This document shows positions 1 through 6,313 of a stretch of 6,313 nucleotides of DNA, one piece after another. Positions within the stretch are counted from its first letter, which is position 1. Every line of letters starts with the position of its first letter. A model generated the notes under the pieces. It made no database searches and was not told the DNA's origin. It worked only from the letters and a program-made list of their open reading frames with translations. Made by a program: the position numbers and the translations under genes. This DNA comes from an uncultured Lentisphaeria bacterium (GTDB taxonomy: Bacteria; Verrucomicrobiota; Lentisphaeria; JABSQK01; CAJWLW01), in the NCBI GenBank assembly GCA_913042885.1, contig CAJWLW010000287.1:1-6313 (forward strand), in the 5' to 3' direction.

Positions 1-899
1 TCGGCCGGATCATCCGGCGCTGGGGTTTTCAGCAGCCGTACAAGCGGATTTTTCAGGCGCGTGCTTATGTTTATCCGGTACCTTTGAGCGACGAGAATCC
101 CGAGCTCGGGGATCGCCTTGCGCCCAACGACCGGCTTGTCCTGCCCTTGTTCGATTTTGAGGGCTTGTGCTACGTGGCCTTCATCTTTGTGCTGGCCTTG
201 TGCATCGCCCGACGCAAACATCTGGTTTCGTCGTTTCGTTGCTGGTGGCGCCGCGGTTGGCCGTTGTTGGCGATCCTGGCAGTCTATTTTGCGGCGCATA
301 TCATCGGTCTCCCGCTGCAGCAGTACCGATTGGTCATCGAACCACTGCTGGTCGTGCTGATGATCGGACTGGTCGTACAGTTGCTCGGCATGCCGGGTCG
401 CTTCGGCGGCGTGCATCGGTCTGTGACCGGACGGGCGCACGTTGTCCCAGCGCTCACGGCGACCGTTGTGGTGTTGCTGTATGCCGGCATTTACCAGTTT
501 CAGTTTGGCATGGCGCCGAAGCCGATCAAATACCCGAAACTTTCGGGCAAAGCGGACGAACCGATGCTGCTCAGCTATTCGCAGGCAAGGGATATGCAAT
601 GGCAGGCACAAGGCGACCTCCCGGCCGGCACAGTCATCTACGCTGCCGGCATTGTCCGGCATATCGGACCGCAGCCCGATCCTCATTTATCTTTCCCGGA
701 CAGGCGGATAGTCAAGGCCAAGCTCGAAGTGCACAAATATGCGGACGACGGACACCCTTTGGGAATCGGCGACATTTACGTCAATTTTCTCTCCTGTGAG
801 GCGCCCGAGGAGGACACCTGCATCAAAGTCACCGGGCGGGCGACCGTCGGCCCCTTCAAGGAAATCACGATCGATGTCGTGGGATGGAGCCACCTATGA
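1..899 (+). CDS. Polytopic membrane protein, GT39/ArnT-like C-terminal part (5' partial)
   Basis: The frame is open from the first complete codon (position 3) to the TGA at 897-899, giving 298 visible residues, so the gene begins upstream of the window. A TTG at 84 is possible but has no ribosome binding site and would cut a continuous frame. Four hydrophobic segments lie at about residues 55-69, 85-102, 113-129 and 148-165. The start of the third reads QYRLVIEPLLVVL, which resembles the late (R)YR-x-P-x-EP-L-hydrophobic helix of GT39/PMT/ArnT-type polyprenyl-phosphate-sugar glycosyltransferases. The last ~110 residues are soluble and beta-rich in appearance, with alternating hydrophobic strands and glycines (GTVIYAAGIV, GDIYVNFL, IKVTGRATVG, ITIDVVGW), possibly an OB-like fold. 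The catalytic N-terminal half is not visible, so the enzyme assignment is inferred. Its stop overlaps the start of a UbiA-family gene, consistent with shared lipid-linked sugar metabolism. It could instead be a non-enzymatic membrane protein. Confidence 0.55.
   Translation, partial: GRIIRRWGFQQPYKRIFQARAYVYPVPLSDENPELGDRLAPNDRLVLPLFDFEGLCYVAFIFVLALCIARRKHLVSSFRCWWRRGWPLLAILAVYFAAHIIGLPLQQYRLVIEPLLVVLMIGLVVQLLGMPGRFGGVHRSVTGRAHVVPALTATVVVLLYAGIYQFQFGMAPKPIKYPKLSGKADEPMLLSYSQARDMQWQAQGDLPAGTVIYAAGIVRHIGPQPDPHLSFPDRRIVKAKLEVHKYADDGHPLGIGDIYVNFLSCEAPEEDTCIKVTGRATVGPFKEITIDVVGWSHL
886..889 (+). promoter_or_regulatory. Ribosome binding site of the UbiA-like gene
   Basis: GGAG sits six bases before ATG 896 and inside the 3' end of the preceding gene. 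It decides between the two in-frame ATGs at 884 and 896 in favour of 896, and together with the ATGA stop/start overlap it suggests translational coupling. Confidence 0.6.
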
Positions 900-1699
900 A
901 TCCCCTCAGTCGTCCGGCGGTGTTTCTGACGCAATCGCGTTTCGTCGAGTTTCTGTTTGCCGCCGGCCTGCCGCTCATCGGCTACTGCCTGGCGATCACG
1001 TCGCTCGACGCGCTGCCGTACATCTGGCTGATGCTGATCGCCACCGGGCTTACCGGCGCTCATATCCTGGCGTTCAACGACGCCTGCTTTCCCGAGCGGC
1101 GACAGACGGCCCGGTTACTGGGCATGCATGCCTGTGTCCTGGTGCCCCTGTTTATTTTCGTTTGGAATCGCGGTCATCACGCTGCCGTGCTGACGCTGCT
1201 GCTGATGATCGTCAATTGGGATTTATACGCCTGGACCGGCAAGCGAAACTGGCTGCTGTCACTGCTGCATCACTGTATCGGCGGCACCTTGCACGTCGCA
1301 GCCGGCTTTCTCTTCGCCGGCGGCGACTGGCGGCAAGCAACATTTGTCGGGGTGTATTTCGGTCTGTGCATGGCCGGCGCTGCCATGCATCATGAAGCGA
1401 TCGATGTGGACGAGGACCATACTGCGGGCTTCACATCAGGCGCCGTCCGTTTCGGGTTCCGCCGGTGGTTCGTATTGGGCGTCGTCCCAATGACGCTGGC
1501 GCATCTATGGCTGCTGCAGCAAATCGACCGATTCGCGGTGCTTATGTTGAGCGCCTTTGCGGTGTACATCGTGCTGTTGGCGGTCTGCACAGTTCGCAGC
1601 ATCGATCACCGCCGGGCCATGGTCTTTCGCATGTATTGCCGAATTGTCTATGGACTGGCGGGTGCGGTGTATCTTCTGTGGCGATTGGTGACTTTGTAG
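896..1699 (+). CDS. UbiA-family membrane prenyltransferase homologue
   Basis: This encodes a 267-residue, highly hydrophobic protein with about seven to nine membrane segments, a usual size for UbiA-superfamily enzymes, which transfer prenyl groups to aromatic or sugar-phosphate acceptors in the membrane. The family's second motif is clear at residues 167-187: E-A-I-D-V-D-E-D-H-T-A-G-F-T followed by AVRFG, close to the usual E-x-x-D-x-x-x-D-x-x-x-G-x-x-T-x-x-x-x-x-G. The first motif, normally NDxxDxxxD, is reduced to NDACFPER at residues 61-68, so the later aspartates are missing. I chose ATG 896 over the in-frame ATG 884 because GGAG lies at 886-889, six bases ahead, and because it forms an ATGA overlap with the upstream stop. 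The partner gene suggests a role in polyprenyl-phosphate sugar donors, for example a DPPR-synthase-like step, but the substrate cannot be read from the sequence. Family membership is fairly secure; activity is uncertain because of the altered motif. Confidence 0.8.
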   Translation: MNPLSRPAVFLTQSRFVEFLFAAGLPLIGYCLAITSLDALPYIWLMLIATGLTGAHILAFNDACFPERRQTARLLGMHACVLVPLFIFVWNRGHHAAVLTLLLMIVNWDLYAWTGKRNWLLSLLHHCIGGTLHVAAGFLFAGGDWRQATFVGVYFGLCMAGAAMHHEAIDVDEDHTAGFTSGAVRFGFRRWFVLGVVPMTLAHLWLLQQIDRFAVLMLSAFAVYIVLLAVCTVRSIDHRRAMVFRMYCRIVYGLAGAVYLLWRLVTL

Positions 1700-1748: not shown

Positions 1749-2780
1749 CTAATACGTAATCTTCTGCCAGTACAGTACGTAATCCTTCGGTAAATTACGC
1801 AAGTCGAGGGTGGCAACCATACGTCTGGTGATGTCGCCGTTGTTATAGCCGGCCCGTACTTCGATCGTGTAGACACCGAAGGCCCGCAGCGACATCCGGG
1901 TGTTGAGCTTGTTGAACAACTCCAGATACAGACACTCTTCCAGCGGTGTCTGCACCTCGTACCACGACTGAATACACTCCTGCAACTGCACCATCTCGTC
2001 GCCGTCGATCCCGGCGGCCGTGCGGATCACCGCCTCCGACGACGAAAAAACGTTCGGTTTGCCGGTAAAGTTGCCGACGTTCCGCGGCGGTACGATGCGC
2101 ACCAGGTCCTGCGGCAACACCTCCATCTCGTTGTCGCGGCGCGGGATTAACAGCTCGATGTTCGGCAGCCAGTATATCTCTTCGCGCAGCGACAGCCGGT
2201 CGTTGCGGGGAAACTCCTCAAGCCCGAAAGCACTGTACTCGTCGCGCTCCATGCCGAGTTCACGCGGCTCGTCGTTGCCGTCGAGGTAGTCCTCGAGAAC
2301 GTCGAAGAAGGCGTCGAGCTGATCACGTCGTTCCTCGTCATCACCGATCGTCGCGGCAAACGACTGGCGCGTCTGCCGCGCGGCCTTCAGCGTCGAGAAA
2401 TCCCAGCCGCGGGCAGCATCGAGCACCCGCACGTGGGCCAGGATATCGTCGGTCACCCAGACATCGTGCCGTTTGCCGTCGGCCATCCAGGACTCGGTAT
2501 CGACGGCTTCGCGTTGAATATCGCGGAAACCGAGGCGGCGGTTTGGAAAACGGCGGCGATCGGACATGATCATCCACTGTCCGTATGCCAGTGCGGACTC
2601 CGCAGCGTATTTCATCTGGCTGCGCTCGGTGTTGACCTTGGTCACGATACGTGAGGTCTGGGCGCTGGTAATCATCATGGCGGCGAGCACTGCGAACAGC
2701 GCCGCCGAACCCAGAACAATGACCAAGGCCATGCCGTGATCCCTGCAGCGACGATTGCCGGATGTTCGGTTACTGGTCAC
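1749..2780 (-). CDS. gspK: T2SS minor pseudopilin GspK
   Basis: GspK is the large minor pseudopilin that, with GspI and GspJ, forms the tip complex of the T2SS pseudopilus in the periplasm. The chosen GTG start gives 343 residues, near the usual length. A 16-residue basic leader ends RDHG, followed by MALVIVLGSAALFAVLAAMM as the membrane helix (about 17-38). As is typical for GspK, there is no Glu at +5. Helix continuation AAESALAYGQW (about 59-69) matches the K-type N-terminal helix. Residues ~161-182 (LEDYLDGND, then GMERDEY) and ~190-205 (FPRNDRLSLREEIYWL) match the family's D-(W/Y)-x-D-x-(D/N) and Asn-rich/EL segments. An upstream in-frame ATG at 2885 would add 35 residues but lies deep in gspJ and would bury the leader. 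GTG 2780 has GGAGG just ahead and overlaps the gspJ stop by 11 bases. It is the last gene of the operon here; gspL and gspM do not follow. Confidence 0.83.
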   Translation of the reverse strand: MTSNRTSGNRRCRDHGMALVIVLGSAALFAVLAAMMITSAQTSRIVTKVNTERSQMKYAAESALAYGQWMIMSDRRRFPNRRLGFRDIQREAVDTESWMADGKRHDVWVTDDILAHVRVLDAARGWDFSTLKAARQTRQSFAATIGDDEERRDQLDAFFDVLEDYLDGNDEPRELGMERDEYSAFGLEEFPRNDRLSLREEIYWLPNIELLIPRRDNEMEVLPQDLVRIVPPRNVGNFTGKPNVFSSSEAVIRTAAGIDGDEMVQLQECIQSWYEVQTPLEECLYLELFNKLNTRMSLRAFGVYTIEVRAGYNNGDITRRMVATLDLRNLPKDYVLYWQKITY

Positions 2781-3465
2781 TCCGCCTCCGGACGCGAGAT
2801 CTCTGACGATCGGACTGCCAACTGCCGTGACGCTCGTATAAGCCGGCGCCGGCGGTGCGGCGCAGCCAGTTCTCATGGCGGCCACCGAACCACTTCACCT
2901 GCATCAAAATAGCCAGCGGCAAATAAGCGTGTTCGGGATCCCAGGTATCTTCAAAGATTAATTCATCGTTGTTCATGTCGCCGTACTGGAAGGCGATGTT
3001 CTCGACGCCGGCCGCCAGATAGGATTTTTTTATCTTCGGGTCGTTGAGATCGCTCGGAAACGGCGGGTAATCGCAATAATAGGCATACAGATCGCTGTGG
3101 CGATCGATGAAAAAACCGCAGTACCGGATGGCACCGTCCTCAAGCCGGTTGAACTGGTGCAGGTAGGAAACGATCATGTGGTCCGGTTCGCCGACAAAAA
3201 TCTGAACCGGCTTGGGCTGACGTTCTCCAATGTCCGCCGGCCAGGTAAACGGGACGACATTGGAAAGGATCGAATCGATGGTGCGATCCAGCACCAGAAT
3301 TTCTTCGAGATGCTCGGTATGACTGTTCACCCGTGACCACGACTCGACGATGGTATATGTGCCCGACACAAGAATTGTCAGGATCACTGCCAGCAGCGCC
3401 GCAGCGATCACGACCTCCAGGAGTGTGAAGGCGTGGGCGCCGAATCTGGTGCGCAGCGATCTCAT
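2770..3465 (-). CDS. gspJ: T2SS minor pseudopilin GspJ
   Basis: This 231-residue protein begins with a 12-residue basic leader, then AFTLLEVVIAAALLAVILTILV: the class III signal with Phe at +1 and Glu at +5, followed by a membrane helix (about 13-35). The residue before the cleavage site is Ala, not Gly. Downstream, ENIAFQYGD (155-163) and LPLAILMQVKW (182-192) match the GspJ pattern of a beta-strand region, a Trp-containing loop and a final strand stating the predicted change. GspJ bridges GspI and GspK in the pseudopilus tip. ATG 3465 overlaps the gspI TGA (ATGA) and has a strong upstream GAGGAGG. The last ~30 residues are very basic and Gln/Ser-rich (QRSRVRRR) and overlap the gspK start; they look poorly structured. 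Assignment rests on motifs plus gene order between I and K. Confidence 0.82.
   Translation of the reverse strand: MRSLRTRFGAHAFTLLEVVIAAALLAVILTILVSGTYTIVESWSRVNSHTEHLEEILVLDRTIDSILSNVVPFTWPADIGERQPKPVQIFVGEPDHMIVSYLHQFNRLEDGAIRYCGFFIDRHSDLYAYYCDYPPFPSDLNDPKIKKSYLAAGVENIAFQYGDMNNDELIFEDTWDPEHAYLPLAILMQVKWFGGRHENWLRRTAGAGLYERHGSWQSDRQRSRVRRRSDQ
2785..2789 (-). promoter_or_regulatory. Ribosome binding site deciding the gspK GTG start
   Basis: On the minus strand GGAGG lies four bases before GTG 2780, inside the last codons of gspJ. The spacing is a little short, but no comparable site precedes the ATG at 2885. This supports the shorter GspK with a normal 16-residue leader. Confidence 0.6.
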
Positions 3466-3920
3466 TCCGGGTCCTCCTCGAAAATGAGTTTGTTGACGAT
3501 GTGCTCAACGCTTCGACCGCTTTCGTCGGTGATCACGATGCGATAGGTGCCAAGGATCCAGCCATTGCTTGCTTCCTGAGCGTAGTCGGGCAAGCCCTCG
3601 AGATCGACGTAGATCTCGCAGGAGGCGTGCAGCTTTCGCGGAATAAGGCCGTCCGGCAGGCTGGCAACCGTCGGATCGGGTGTCAGCAGGTAAAACTCGG
3701 TAGCTTGCTCCAGCGCATGCTGCAGGGACCATTCACTCTCAAGCGTCGCAATATTGAATTTCGCCTGTCCCGACAGTGTCAGTGTAGCGCCCAGCGCCAG
3801 CGCCAGGACAGCGATAGCGACCAGCACCTCGATCAGCGTGAACCGGAGCCGCGCGAAACTTGCGAACTCTGCAACGTGCCGCCCAATACGCCGCGCAGTT
3901 GGACTGTTGCTCGTGCTCAC
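3462..3920 (-). CDS. gspI: T2SS minor pseudopilin GspI
   Basis: This 152-residue protein has a long 26-residue leader rich in Arg, Ser and Ala, then FTLIEVLVAIAVLALALGAT at residues 27-46, the standard pseudopilin helix with Glu at +5. The residue at -1 is Arg. FTLIEVLVA(I/L)AV(L/I) and the short length are typical of GspI, which initiates the I-J-K tip complex by anchoring in the inner membrane. The C-terminal part (YRIVITDESGRSVEH) resembles the family's closing beta strands. The start is GTG 3920, forming a GTGA overlap with the gspH stop; no other ATG, GTG or TTG exists in frame before the FTLIE motif, so the long leader is real unless a rare start is used. No clear ribosome binding site precedes it, so translation probably depends on coupling to gspH. 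Position between H and J supports the call. Confidence 0.78.
   Translation of the reverse strand: MSTSNSPTARRIGRHVAEFASFARLRFTLIEVLVAIAVLALALGATLTLSGQAKFNIATLESEWSLQHALEQATEFYLLTPDPTVASLPDGLIPRKLHASCEIYVDLEGLPDYAQEASNGWILGTYRIVITDESGRSVEHIVNKLIFEEDPE
3473..3479 (-). promoter_or_regulatory. Strong ribosome binding site of gspJ
   Basis: GAGGAGG on the minus strand lies seven bases before ATG 3465. It is built into the Glu-Glu-Asp codons at the end of gspI. It is the clearest Shine-Dalgarno sequence in the operon; gspF, gspG and gspI have only weak or no such sites. Confidence 0.7.
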
Positions 3921-4438
3921 TGCTCGGTGATCGGCGCCATGATGGCACGGCCGTTGAGCCTGTCCACTTCGATGGCAGTGTGCAGCTCGTCGATGCGCAC
4001 CGGCAGGTACGGGCCGGTGGCCTCGCCGTTCGGGAAGAATTCGTAGTAGGCGGCCTGCCCGTCGTGATCGAACGACTCCTCGTCAAGCCTAACGCCCTCG
4101 GGCAACGGAAACCGCTTCAACCGGTTGAGAGCAGAGGCAACGTCGAAGTTGTCGGCATCGCTGTAGGCGCCCTCGGTAGCGGGGCGCATGCGCTGGACGT
4201 TGGCGGCCTCGATGCGGATCTGCCGGTTTGCGAATTCGATGTGCACCTTGACCTGGCGCCCGGTGGCCATCGCCAAGGTAGTCGCGGCGTTGAAGGAGGC
4301 CCCAACGGAATCAGCAAACTGCGTGACCCGGATGCCACGCGGCACGAGGCCAAGGCGCGGCATGACGACAGCAATTACCGTAGCGACGACAACGAGCACG
4401 ACAATCATCTCCAGCAGTGTGAAGCGGCGCCGGTTCAT
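3917..4438 (-). CDS. gspH: T2SS minor pseudopilin GspH
   Basis: This 173-residue pseudopilin has a very short leader, MNRRR, followed by FTLLEMIVVLVVVATVIAVV (6-25) with Glu at +5 and a Pro at mature position 22. Arg occupies -1. The globular domain contains QVKVHIEFANRQIRI (62-76), the paired beta strands typical of GspH/FimT proteins, and YYEFFPNGEATGP (131-143), matching the conserved F-x-P-x-G-x-(S/A)-x-G strand-turn near the C-terminus. GspH is thought to lie near the tip of the pseudopilus and to connect it to the shaft. The ATG overlaps the gspG TAA by one base (TAATG), with GAGGA three bases before it. FimT-type pilus proteins share this fold, but the flanking gspG and gspI favour GspH. 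Confidence 0.82.
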   Translation of the reverse strand: MNRRRFTLLEMIVVLVVVATVIAVVMPRLGLVPRGIRVTQFADSVGASFNAATTLAMATGRQVKVHIEFANRQIRIEAANVQRMRPATEGAYSDADNFDVASALNRLKRFPLPEGVRLDEESFDHDGQAAYYEFFPNGEATGPYLPVRIDELHTAIEVDRLNGRAIMAPITEQ

Positions 4439-4860
4439 TATTCCTCGTACCAGCTACCGATATCGGCGTCGTTCTTCTGACCGCCGGAAGCGCCGTCTTT
4501 ACCGTAGCTGTAAATGTCGTACCCCCGCCCGTCCTGGCCTGGCAGATCGAAATAATACTCATTGCCCCAGGGGTCCTTGGGGATGGCACTGCTCTTGAGG
4601 TACGGGCCGTTCCATTTGGCTGACGACCCGGGATTTTTGACCAGGTCGTTGAGCGTGCGGGGATGTTCCTTCATGTCCAGGTAGTACGAGAGGACGGCAT
4701 CGTCTAGTACTTTAATCTGCGCCTTCGCAGCGTGCCGATTGCTCTTTTCCAAACCGCCCATGACATTGGGCAGAACCAGCCCGGCTATGAGTGCGATGAT
4801 CGTGACGACAACCAGCATCTCCACAAGCGTGAAAGACCGGCGATAGACAACGTTCTTCAT
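4438..4860 (-). CDS. gspG: T2SS major pseudopilin GspG
   Basis: GspG polymerises into the periplasmic pseudopilus that pushes exoproteins through the outer-membrane secretin. The protein is 140 residues, the usual length. A nine-residue leader (MKNVVYRRS) precedes FTLVEMLVVVTIIALIAGLVLP-type helix residues 10-31, with Glu at +5 and Pro at mature position 22. The -1 residue is Ser instead of Gly. The helix continues with AKAQIKVLDDAVLSYYLD (45-62). The diagnostic GspG C-terminal features follow: a W-x-x-x-Y(L) segment at 83-88, P-x-DPWGN at 94-100, YDIYSYGKDG at 114-123 and DADIGSW at 131-137; the last two are the calcium-binding loop region of the family. It starts at ATG 4860, 39 bases after the gspF stop, with only a weak GAG ahead. 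This is the most secure assignment in the operon. Confidence 0.95.
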   Translation of the reverse strand: MKNVVYRRSFTLVEMLVVVTIIALIAGLVLPNVMGGLEKSNRHAAKAQIKVLDDAVLSYYLDMKEHPRTLNDLVKNPGSSAKWNGPYLKSSAIPKDPWGNEYYFDLPGQDGRGYDIYSYGKDGASGGQKNDADIGSWYEE

Positions 4861-4899: not shown

Positions 4900-6099
4900 T
4901 TACAAGCCGCCCTGCATATCCATCACCGCCATGAACAGCATCAGAACGATCGAACCGACGACGAGGCCCAGCACGATGATGACGATCGGTTCGAACCAGG
5001 ACAACGCCCGTTTCACAAGGTGCTTGAGGTCGTCGTCGTAGCGATCGGCAACGCGTTCCAGCATGACATCGGAAGCGCCCATTTCCTCGCCGACAGCGAG
5101 CATGCGGATGACCATTGTCGGCACGTACGGACTGCGTCCCAGGGCAACGCTGAGGCGTTCACCGCGGCGCAGGTCGGCAGCCAGGGTGGAAATCGAACTG
5201 CGCAGCCTGCTGTTCTGAATAACGCGGGCAGCGATGGCAACCGTATCAAGCAGGTGCACGCCGTTGCGCATCAGGATAGCCATGGTACGCACCAGGCGCC
5301 CGATATTAGCAAGCAAGACCATACGGCCGAGGATCGGCACTTTGAGCACGAAGTCATCCCAGCGTGCCAGAATACGTTCGTCACGCGACGCCTCGCGGAT
5401 GGCAATGACAGCAACCGCCAGCAGGATGACACCGATCCACCAGTAATCGTGCAGACCAGTCGACAGGGCCAGCAGGAGTGCCGTCGACCCCGCGGCCGGC
5501 TGTCCGGAAGTCGTGATGACTTCGCCGAATTTCGGTACGACAATGCCAAGCAGAATCATCACGACACCGCCACACACAAACAGGACGAACACCGGATAAA
5601 TCGATGAGGATACAACGAAATTTCGCATCTCCCGCTGCATGAGCAGAAAATCACGGAGTTGCGCCAGCACCTGTGGCAACGCCCCCGCTTCCTCGCCGGC
5701 CTCAACGATACTGGCGTACATACGCGGAAACTGCCGGCCGCGATCGCGGATCAGCTGCGATAGTTTGCGGCCCTCATGCAGACCGCGACGCAGGCCGGCG
5801 ATGAGTTCTTTTTCTTCCTGGCTTTCGCTGGTTTCCTCGATGATGCCAAGAGCGCGTTCCAGCGGGATGTCGGCCTGCAGCAAAGGCACCAGACGATCAC
5901 TGAAGTCAGCGACGTCGAACTTGCGACGAAATCCCCAAGAGCGACCGCCACCTCTGGAATCACCGTGGCCGAGAAACTCGATCGGAATCAGCGAGCGCGA
6001 ACGTACACGCCGGGTCGCTTCGCTCTCGCTCTCGCTCTCGATCAGGATTTCTTCGATCTTCCCGGCGGCATTGGCGACTTTGAACTTGAAAAGCGGCAT
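4900..6099 (-). CDS. gspF: T2SS inner-membrane platform protein GspF
   Basis: GspF is the polytopic core of the inner-membrane platform; it contacts the GspE ATPase and drives pseudopilus assembly. The 399 residues match the family length. The N-terminus (MPLFKFKVANAAGKIEE, then SEATRRVRSRSLIPI) is the cytoplasmic cap typical of GspF/PilC. Two T2SSF repeats follow, about 66-189 and 268-391. Each has the Gly-Glu-x-x-Gly signature, EAGEEAGALPQVL at 133-145 and VGEEMGASDVML at 336-347. Membrane segments lie at about 167-189, 218-235 and 370-391; the last starts with the conserved EP (FEPIVIIVLGLVVGSIVLMLF). PilC of type IV pili is the main alternative, but the gspG-K genes directly downstream settle it. 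Residues 21-27 read ESESESE from a hexamer repeat. ATG 6099 lies three bases after the preceding stop without a good ribosome binding site, which suggests coupling. Confidence 0.93.
   Translation of the reverse strand: MPLFKFKVANAAGKIEEILIESESESEATRRVRSRSLIPIEFLGHGDSRGGGRSWGFRRKFDVADFSDRLVPLLQADIPLERALGIIEETSESQEEKELIAGLRRGLHEGRKLSQLIRDRGRQFPRMYASIVEAGEEAGALPQVLAQLRDFLLMQREMRNFVVSSSIYPVFVLFVCGGVVMILLGIVVPKFGEVITTSGQPAAGSTALLLALSTGLHDYWWIGVILLAVAVIAIREASRDERILARWDDFVLKVPILGRMVLLANIGRLVRTMAILMRNGVHLLDTVAIAARVIQNSRLRSSISTLAADLRRGERLSVALGRSPYVPTMVIRMLAVGEEMGASDVMLERVADRYDDDLKHLVKRALSWFEPIVIIVLGLVVGSIVLMLFMAVMDMQGGL
6020..6040. repeat. Hexamer microrepeat within gspF
   Basis: The plus strand shows the unit TCGCTC three times in tandem plus a partial fourth copy. 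On the coding strand it encodes alternating Glu-Ser (residues 21-27 of GspF). Because the unit is six bases, gain or loss of a copy would keep the frame. Confidence 0.7.
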
Positions 6100-6102
6100 G
6101 GG

Positions 6103-6313
6103 TCAATCGCCGTCGGCTGCATTTTTTGTCTGTTTCTGCTGCATGATGAAGATTCGGCGCATCATGACCGGGACGTTATCGATGCGGAATTCCAGCCAGT
6201 ACTCGCCGGTGTTGCGAAAGCAGACGCCCTGGACATTGAACACCAGATCAACCACCTGCATCGGATCCTTGAACGCCACTTTACCTTTGACCGCGAGAGC
6301 ATTGGTATCGGTT
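6103..6313 (-). CDS. C-terminal end of an unrecognised protein, possibly DUF6941-like (5' partial)
   Basis: A minus-strand frame is open from the window edge to the TGA at 6103-6105, giving 69 residues. It has beta-strand character: LAVKGKVAF, then VVDLVFNVQGVCF, then a turn NTGEYWLEFRIDNVPVMMRRIFI, and a short charged tail QQKQTKNAADGD. The pattern of a hydrophobic strand, F-x-x-(P/N)-G-x-Y-x-(F/L)-x-(F/L)-x-(I/V)-(D/G)-(N/G) and a final strand resembles the C-terminal end of DUF6941-type small beta-sandwich proteins, but this is from memory of the pattern only. The stop is three bases from the gspF start, so it is probably cotranscribed with the T2SS genes. It does not resemble GspE, GspD or GspC, the usual neighbours upstream of gspF. 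Function unknown. Confidence 0.6.
   Translation of the reverse strand, partial: TDTNALAVKGKVAFKDPMQVVDLVFNVQGVCFRNTGEYWLEFRIDNVPVMMRRIFIMQQKQTKNAADGD

Follow-up and report, generated by a model that had tools for sequence, protein, structure and literature searches.

Loss of the leader glycine from pseudopilins across a class of Lentisphaerota suggests a prepilin peptidase with relaxed P1 specificity

Contig CAJWLW010000287.1 (assembly GCA_913042885.1) of an uncultured Lentisphaeria bacterium, whose 6,313 nucleotides are referred to below as the window, carries on its minus strand a type II secretion system (T2SS) operon comprising gspF, gspG, gspH, gspI, gspJ and gspK. Most of the pseudopilins encoded in this operon lack glycine at position -1, the last residue of the leader that the prepilin peptidase PilD/GspO removes in studied systems. 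A sequence-only reading of the window had taken this for four independent changes in one operon; it is instead one local instance of a condition found throughout the class, in which Phe at +1 and Glu at +5 of the FTLxE motif are essentially fixed while position -1 accepts nearly any residue. We consider it probable, judging from sequence comparisons, that the PilD of this class cuts the X|F bond with a relaxed P1 requirement, reading the Phe...Glu side of the motif.

The residues allowed at -1 in previously studied enzymes are few. A 2023 review describes the leader end as invariably Gly or Ala (PMC10191384), and a 2014 review calls the leader Gly absolutely critical and mentions many Gly-1 exceptions in archaea (PMC4471445). 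According to a further article, bulkier residues at -1 abolish processing in P. aeruginosa, and S. sanguinis PilE1 is processed when Gly-1 is changed to Ala and is not processed when it is changed to Ser (PMC6497953).

Translation of the minus strand confirms that Ser, Arg, Arg and Ala precede intact FTLxE motifs in the first four pseudopilins of the operon. The major pseudopilin GspG (4438..4860) begins MKNVVYRRS|FTLVEM, with the Ser codon TCT at 4836-4834, the +1 Phe codon at 4833-4831 and Glu at +5; the GspH-like protein (3917..4438) has a leader of only five residues, MNRRR|FTLLEM, ending in Arg (CGC, 4426-4424); the GspI-like protein (3462..3920), which starts with GTG, reads SFARLR|FTLIEV with Arg at -1 (CGG, 3845-3843); and the GspJ-like protein (2770..3465) reads MRSLRTRFGAHA|FTLLEV with Ala at -1 (GCC, 3432-3430). 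Ser and the two Arg residues are indeed unusual, but studied enzymes tolerate Ala, the residue of GspJ, so that three of the four residues formerly counted as unusual remain. The list of four pseudopilins without Gly was correct as far as it went, but it omitted a fifth, GspK-like protein (1749..2780), which retains Gly at -1 (codon 2735-2733) in the sequence RRCRDHG|MALVIVLG, has Met at +1 and lacks Glu at +5. The mechanically delimited open reading frame (ORF) of this gene starts at 2885, within gspJ; the GTG at 2780 is the more probable start because of its overlap with the gspJ stop.

The assignment of these proteins to the pseudopilins rests on profile matches of unequal strength and on their arrangement behind gspF. 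GspG matches TIGR01710 (123.4 bits against a cut-off of 88.85) and PF08334; the GspH-, GspI- and GspJ-like proteins resemble the respective models (in the last case GspJ-type models) below curated cut-offs, and the GspK-like protein matches NF037980 below its cut-off (E 1.2e-11). GspG to GspJ all have a basic hydrophilic leader and, after it, a hydrophobic segment that carries Glu at +5, and a leader ending in Gly or Ala is found in GspJ (Ala) and GspK (Gly) and is absent from GspG, GspH and GspI. Homology identifies the latter three as pseudopilins even though the textbook leader definition fails for them. The Pfam N_methyl motif falls narrowly below its cut-off in GspI and GspJ, two of the four FTLxE proteins of the window, and motif tools based on Gly-1 may thus miss such proteins.

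The loss of a critical residue from several genes could look like the decay of a dying T2SS operon, but this explanation is hardly credible and was rejected. The genes from gspF to gspK are six intact, compactly arranged ORFs with overlapping neighbours. Comparison with the operon of G153 (G-numbers denote genomes and L-numbers the loci or contigs compared) gave dS of 0.20-0.32 and dN of 0.022-0.072, with dN/dS of about 0.08 for gspF, 0.27 for gspG, 0.20 for gspH, 0.27 for gspI, 0.11 for gspJ and 0.17 for gspK, which indicates purifying selection on the operon. The earlier argument against random damage is thus upheld by intact genes with dN/dS of about 0.1-0.3, and the pattern itself is class-wide.

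The nearest relatives of the operon come from the same class and share its peculiarity. GspF is 95% identical to its counterpart in G153, which belongs to the same class as the Victivallaceae genome G001, as do G002 (a Lentisphaeria contig) and G003 (a Lentisphaerae contig). In a collection of 80 T2SS loci, the best four relatives of GspF, GspI, GspJ and GspK are the four Lentisphaerota loci, and for GspG and GspH only the Lentisphaerota locus L001 ranks first. These affinities place the window in Lentisphaerota. The six closest GspG homologues, about 64-93% identical to the query, have P, S, P, F, M and M at -1, whereas Gly occupies this position in 110 of the 119 homologues with a readable motif among the best 120 of 476 matches (the remaining one, P0047, has no motif match and was excluded). 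Six GspH homologues were found, the five closest with Arg and the sixth with Ala. Across five operons (the window, G153, G048, G151 and G128, in this order) the -1 residue is S/S/Y/Y/F in GspG, R/R/H/R/R in GspH, R/R/Q/H/S in GspI and A/A/K/W/R in GspJ, and it is Gly in all five GspK proteins. A sequencing or frame error was rejected as an explanation, since the relatives show the same Gly-less state with different residues.

Genome-wide counts were obtained with a degenerate DNA pattern encoding F[T/S]LxE plus three more residues, with or without a preceding Gly codon, so that they score Gly alone at -1. The pattern was applied to 145 genomes drawn evenly from the phylum to which G001 belongs, 50 of them in the class of G001 and 95 outside; both counts include chance matches, of which the reversed pattern gives 0-7 per strand and genome. 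Gly was found at 195 of 3639 sites in the class against 861 of 1236 in the other genomes of the phylum, and a wider draw of 78 class genomes gave 282 of 6159; the remark in the sequence-only reading that non-Gly FTLIE proteins are common in Lentisphaerota is therefore borne out. Among genomes with at least 10 sites, the median share of Gly is 6% in the class (43 genomes) and 73% outside it (62 genomes), with just one small case of overlap between the groups: the highest class value is 29% (G108, 4/14), and the lowest outside value is 20% (G127, 2/10), followed by 40%. Of the 12 low-Gly genomes in the phylum sample, all but G127 belong to the class. Neither of the two observations that would speak for mere local damage, a decayed operon and a genome set in which other pilins mostly carry Gly, was made.

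The range of residues at -1 is illustrated by G085, a genome in one 5.7 Mb contig with Gly at a single one of 116 sites: the 85 sites with a -1 codon starting in a base other than G have R19 L11 C10 S10 H9 F8 T8 M3 K2 N2 Q1 Y1 P1, and the other 30 have Ala, Val, Asp or Glu. In 79 leaders taken from class loci, for which Ala was counted too, position -1 holds two Gly, seven Ala and one acidic residue, and the leaders remain basic, with a K+R fraction of 0.35-0.58 at positions -1 to -4. The other side of the bond is a different matter: in the 78 class genomes and for the commonest form of the motif, which these counts cover, Phe at +1 precedes 4494 of 4508 TLIELLV sites, and Glu at +5 fills the gap in 4494 of 4511 FTLI.LLV sites. 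The F[T/S]LxE sites are also hugely multiplied in class genomes, reaching 291 in G012, 261 in G014 and 200 in G027, far beyond the needs of one T2SS.

A comparable contrast is seen among the 80 T2SS loci, which were collected by similarity to the GspG group of the window, scanned for the motif in ORFs with a looser pattern and grouped by record titles (three had no motif). Gly precedes 164 of 166 motifs in the 62 loci grouped as Proteobacteria/Thermodesulfobacteriota, the other two having Ala, so that its absence from the four FTLxE motifs of the window is not a matter of chance. It precedes 9 of 12 motifs in four loci of Planctomycetota and 19 of 21 in seven other loci, the rest all being Ala, and none of 13 in the four Lentisphaerota loci.

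These data bear on the suggestion, also contained in the sequence-only reading, that the leaders are cut at another place, which would mean a different bond on either side of X|F that still follows a small residue. Canonical enzymes, according to a review, do cut after Gly or Ala (PMC10191384), but the GspH leader MNRRR contains neither residue, and no displaced Gly was found in class leaders, each of the positions -1 to -7 holding Gly in 1 to 5 of 77-79 sequences. Cleavage elsewhere would also leave the fixation of Phe at +1, next to a free -1 position, without a reason, and we regard it as very improbable.

The GspK-type proteins of the class, which lack Glu at +5, provide an internal contrast. 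Among 39 of them whose -1 residue was read by eye, 37 have Gly and two Asn, in a set that includes several near-identical relatives and that came mostly from a family search favouring Gly; it consists of 30 loci from that search, all below the NF037980 cut-off, together with the window, L001, L007, L017, L041 and L245-L248. The GspK proteins found by neighbourhood or by similarity to that of the window, the window included, have Gly in nine of nine cases. Gly also occurs in all 20 long proteins with a GspK-like start (open frames of 562-1317 amino acids), which were chosen because the model match began near -1 and are thus biased toward Gly; the family search returned further matches beyond these 30 loci and 20 proteins. 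Three GspK-type proteins (L185, L186 and L190) have Phe at +1, lack Glu at +5 and keep Gly at -1, which would implicate Glu5 more than Phe. It is thus mostly in proteins with both Phe+1 and Glu+5 that Gly-1 has disappeared.

Long proteins starting in the GspK-like manner, G|[V/I/S]AL..., are present in many Lentisphaeria genomes (L214-L233; e.g., G012:C36:4587 and G085:C1:4372923), and the G|VALLFALG type recurs among them. In G099, one of the two genomes with an Asn-type GspK, Gly is unusually common at the FTLxE sites (17 of 97).

The candidate agent of cleavage is present throughout the class. A peptidase A24 match was found in each of 50 class genomes (counted by hand from the phylum sample), a single one in 30 and two or three in 20, which suggests that one enzyme probably serves both the FTLxE and the GspK-type substrates. 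A second, unrelated peptidase that trims the FTLxE leaders and leaves the Gly-bearing GspK-type proteins to PilD would agree with the sharp difference at -1 between the two kinds of substrates and with the genomes that have several A24 matches. It would have to be reconciled with the 30 single-match genomes, given without completeness figures, of which G001, G003, G009, G012 and G102 have both kinds of substrates. No further enzyme that would remove leaders of this type from the cytoplasmic side is known to us, and we rate this explanation as very improbable.

The PilD homologues were compared as the sequence-only reading had proposed, using 35 class enzymes, one per genome and drawn from part of the class genomes, aligned with 30 of 34 from outside the class; four non-class loci (L086, L088, L109 and L177) were left out of the alignment, and three short A24 enzymes (L103, L106 and L110) and a locus in which no ORF was found (L089) were excluded from the set. 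Both PF06750 and PF01478 were above their cut-offs in the eight enzymes scanned, six of them from the class. Throughout the 65 sequences the two catalytic Asp residues, D147 and D219 (numbering of L147), are invariant; of the four Cys in the first loop, Cys 66, 69 and 94 are invariant as well, and Cys 91 is conserved in at least 90%. Next to the active site, the class enzymes are altered: the residue four positions after D147 is Arg in 26 of 35, the x of GxGD is Trp in 24 of 35, and the residue three positions after D219 is Phe or Tyr in 26 of 35, where 29 of 30 enzymes from outside the class, and E. coli GspO as well, have Leu. In a phylogenetic tree with E. coli GspO as the sole outgroup, itself on a very long branch, all 35 class enzymes lie on one side of a single branch (support 100/99). 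Trp at the x of GxGD was rejected as the sole determinant of the proposed specificity, as the other class enzymes lack it. Sequence profile searches gave no convincing solved relative of PilD, the matches being mostly CTCF zinc fingers aligned on the Cys motif, and Foldseek retrieved nothing that reached E 0.001; a second aligner ranked FlaK first. A regular expression search did not find PilD in the 80 T2SS loci.

From these comparisons we infer cleavage at X|F, PilD as its agent and the PilD residues that would enable it. The Lentisphaeria enzyme would have a relaxed S1 site and would cut the bond that immediately precedes the conserved Phe (X|FTLxE), after which N-methylation of this Phe would be possible. 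In substrates bearing both Phe+1 and Glu+5, recognition would lie on the mature side and the identity of the -1 residue would be nearly irrelevant, and the GspK-type substrates, having no Glu+5, would probably need Gly at -1.

The main rival to a PilD with relaxed P1 specificity holds that the FTLxE proteins of the class are uncleaved and work as signal-anchored proteins, only the GspK-type ones being processed, so that -1 has drifted. Without cleavage, losing Gly-1 would have no cost, and Gly is indeed mostly retained in the GspK-type proteins; bulky -1 residues moreover block the studied enzymes (PMC6497953). Under such drift, however, Phe+1 and Glu+5 would not be expected to be kept although the leader side is free, the leaders are still basic, and PilD with its methylase-type domain is retained. 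A GspG that retains its leader would not be expected to assemble in a T2SS, and purifying selection nonetheless acts on this operon. Absence of cleavage therefore seems unlikely to us.

Several observations weigh against a relaxed P1 site. It calls for an enzyme unlike the studied ones, since replacement of Gly-1 by Ser blocks S. sanguinis PilE1. The altered PilD residues vary within the class, as the Trp count shows, and they arose in one clade, so that their link to the -1 residue amounts to a single event; moreover, the class enzymes were read from genomes other than that of the window. Gly persists in places, with 4/14 sites in G108, 17/97 in G099 and 14/83 in G060, and variation among close relatives is not seen in all genes, the Arg of GspH being unchanged in its five closest homologues. 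The GspK contrast is weakened by the two Asn-type proteins, L195 (G212) and L208 (G099), which read RHN|AAL[IV]AVL, by the relatedness of several of the 39 proteins, and by the family model, which starts near the -1 residue and hence biases the search toward Gly; the seven of the 30 loci whose match starts past position 2 comprise five with Gly and both Asn cases.

A more specific version of the relaxed-P1 proposal is that PilD accepts two kinds of substrates, "any residue|Phe...Glu5" or "Gly|start without Glu5". This can be put forward only tentatively and is somewhat more doubtful than otherwise, because the search that gave most of the GspK-type proteins favours Gly. Glu5 is held to be dispensable for processing; if the two-way reading were true, it would have turned into a part of the cleavage signal, and freedom from Gly-1 would have let the class expand to as many as 291 sites per genome.

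GspF, the inner-membrane platform protein (4900..6099, minus strand), matches PF00482 (5.9e-49) and, below the cut-off of 424, TIGR02120 (9.4e-93, 311.6 bits). Directly upstream of gspF and on the same strand lies a C-terminal fragment resembling DUF6941 (6103-6312; 25.2 vs 27 bits). Convergent with the operon, an ORF for a UbiA-like prenyltransferase (884-1699, plus strand; 31.0 bits against a Pfam cut-off of 34.2) overlaps the end of the preceding ORF (3-899, plus strand), which encodes a probable membrane protein truncated at the window edge with a sub-threshold match to DUF4175 (E 0.073).

No report of the loss of Gly-1 in this class was found in the open-access full-text literature, a body that leaves most subscription journals outside its scope. 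A class with thousands of Gly-1 exceptions, fixed +1 and +5 residues and a contrasting GspK represents a natural experiment on substrate recognition by prepilin peptidases.

The closest known counterparts of the operon are T2SS pseudopilin operons such as that of E. coli K-12 (NC_000913.3), which has the same F-G-H-I-J-K order and the same TLxE core, and whose GspK, RG|VALLIVL, has a Gly-type start like that of the window. The two differ in the remaining pseudopilins: GspG, GspH, GspI and GspJ of E. coli all have Gly at -1, where those of the window have S, R, R and A. The class enzymes belong with the known PilD/GspO peptidases (PF06750 + PF01478, A24). They mostly differ from those of other classes of the phylum and from E. 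coli GspO at the fourth residue after D147, the x of GxGD and the third residue after D219, and their likely substrates mostly lack Gly-1. In S. sanguinis, as reported in the article cited above (PMC6497953), PilA has a degenerate signal without Glu5, retains Gly-1 and is cleaved, much like GspK of the class, and the change to Ser that abolishes the processing of PilE1 is the state found naturally in GspG of the window. Gly-1 exceptions are also known for the archaeal class III signal peptides and FlaK-type peptidases, as the 2014 review indicates (PMC4471445). Unlike the archaeal case, the one described here concerns a bacterial class in which Phe+1 and Glu+5 are fixed and position -1 is nearly unconstrained, admitting even Arg, Lys, Trp and Pro.

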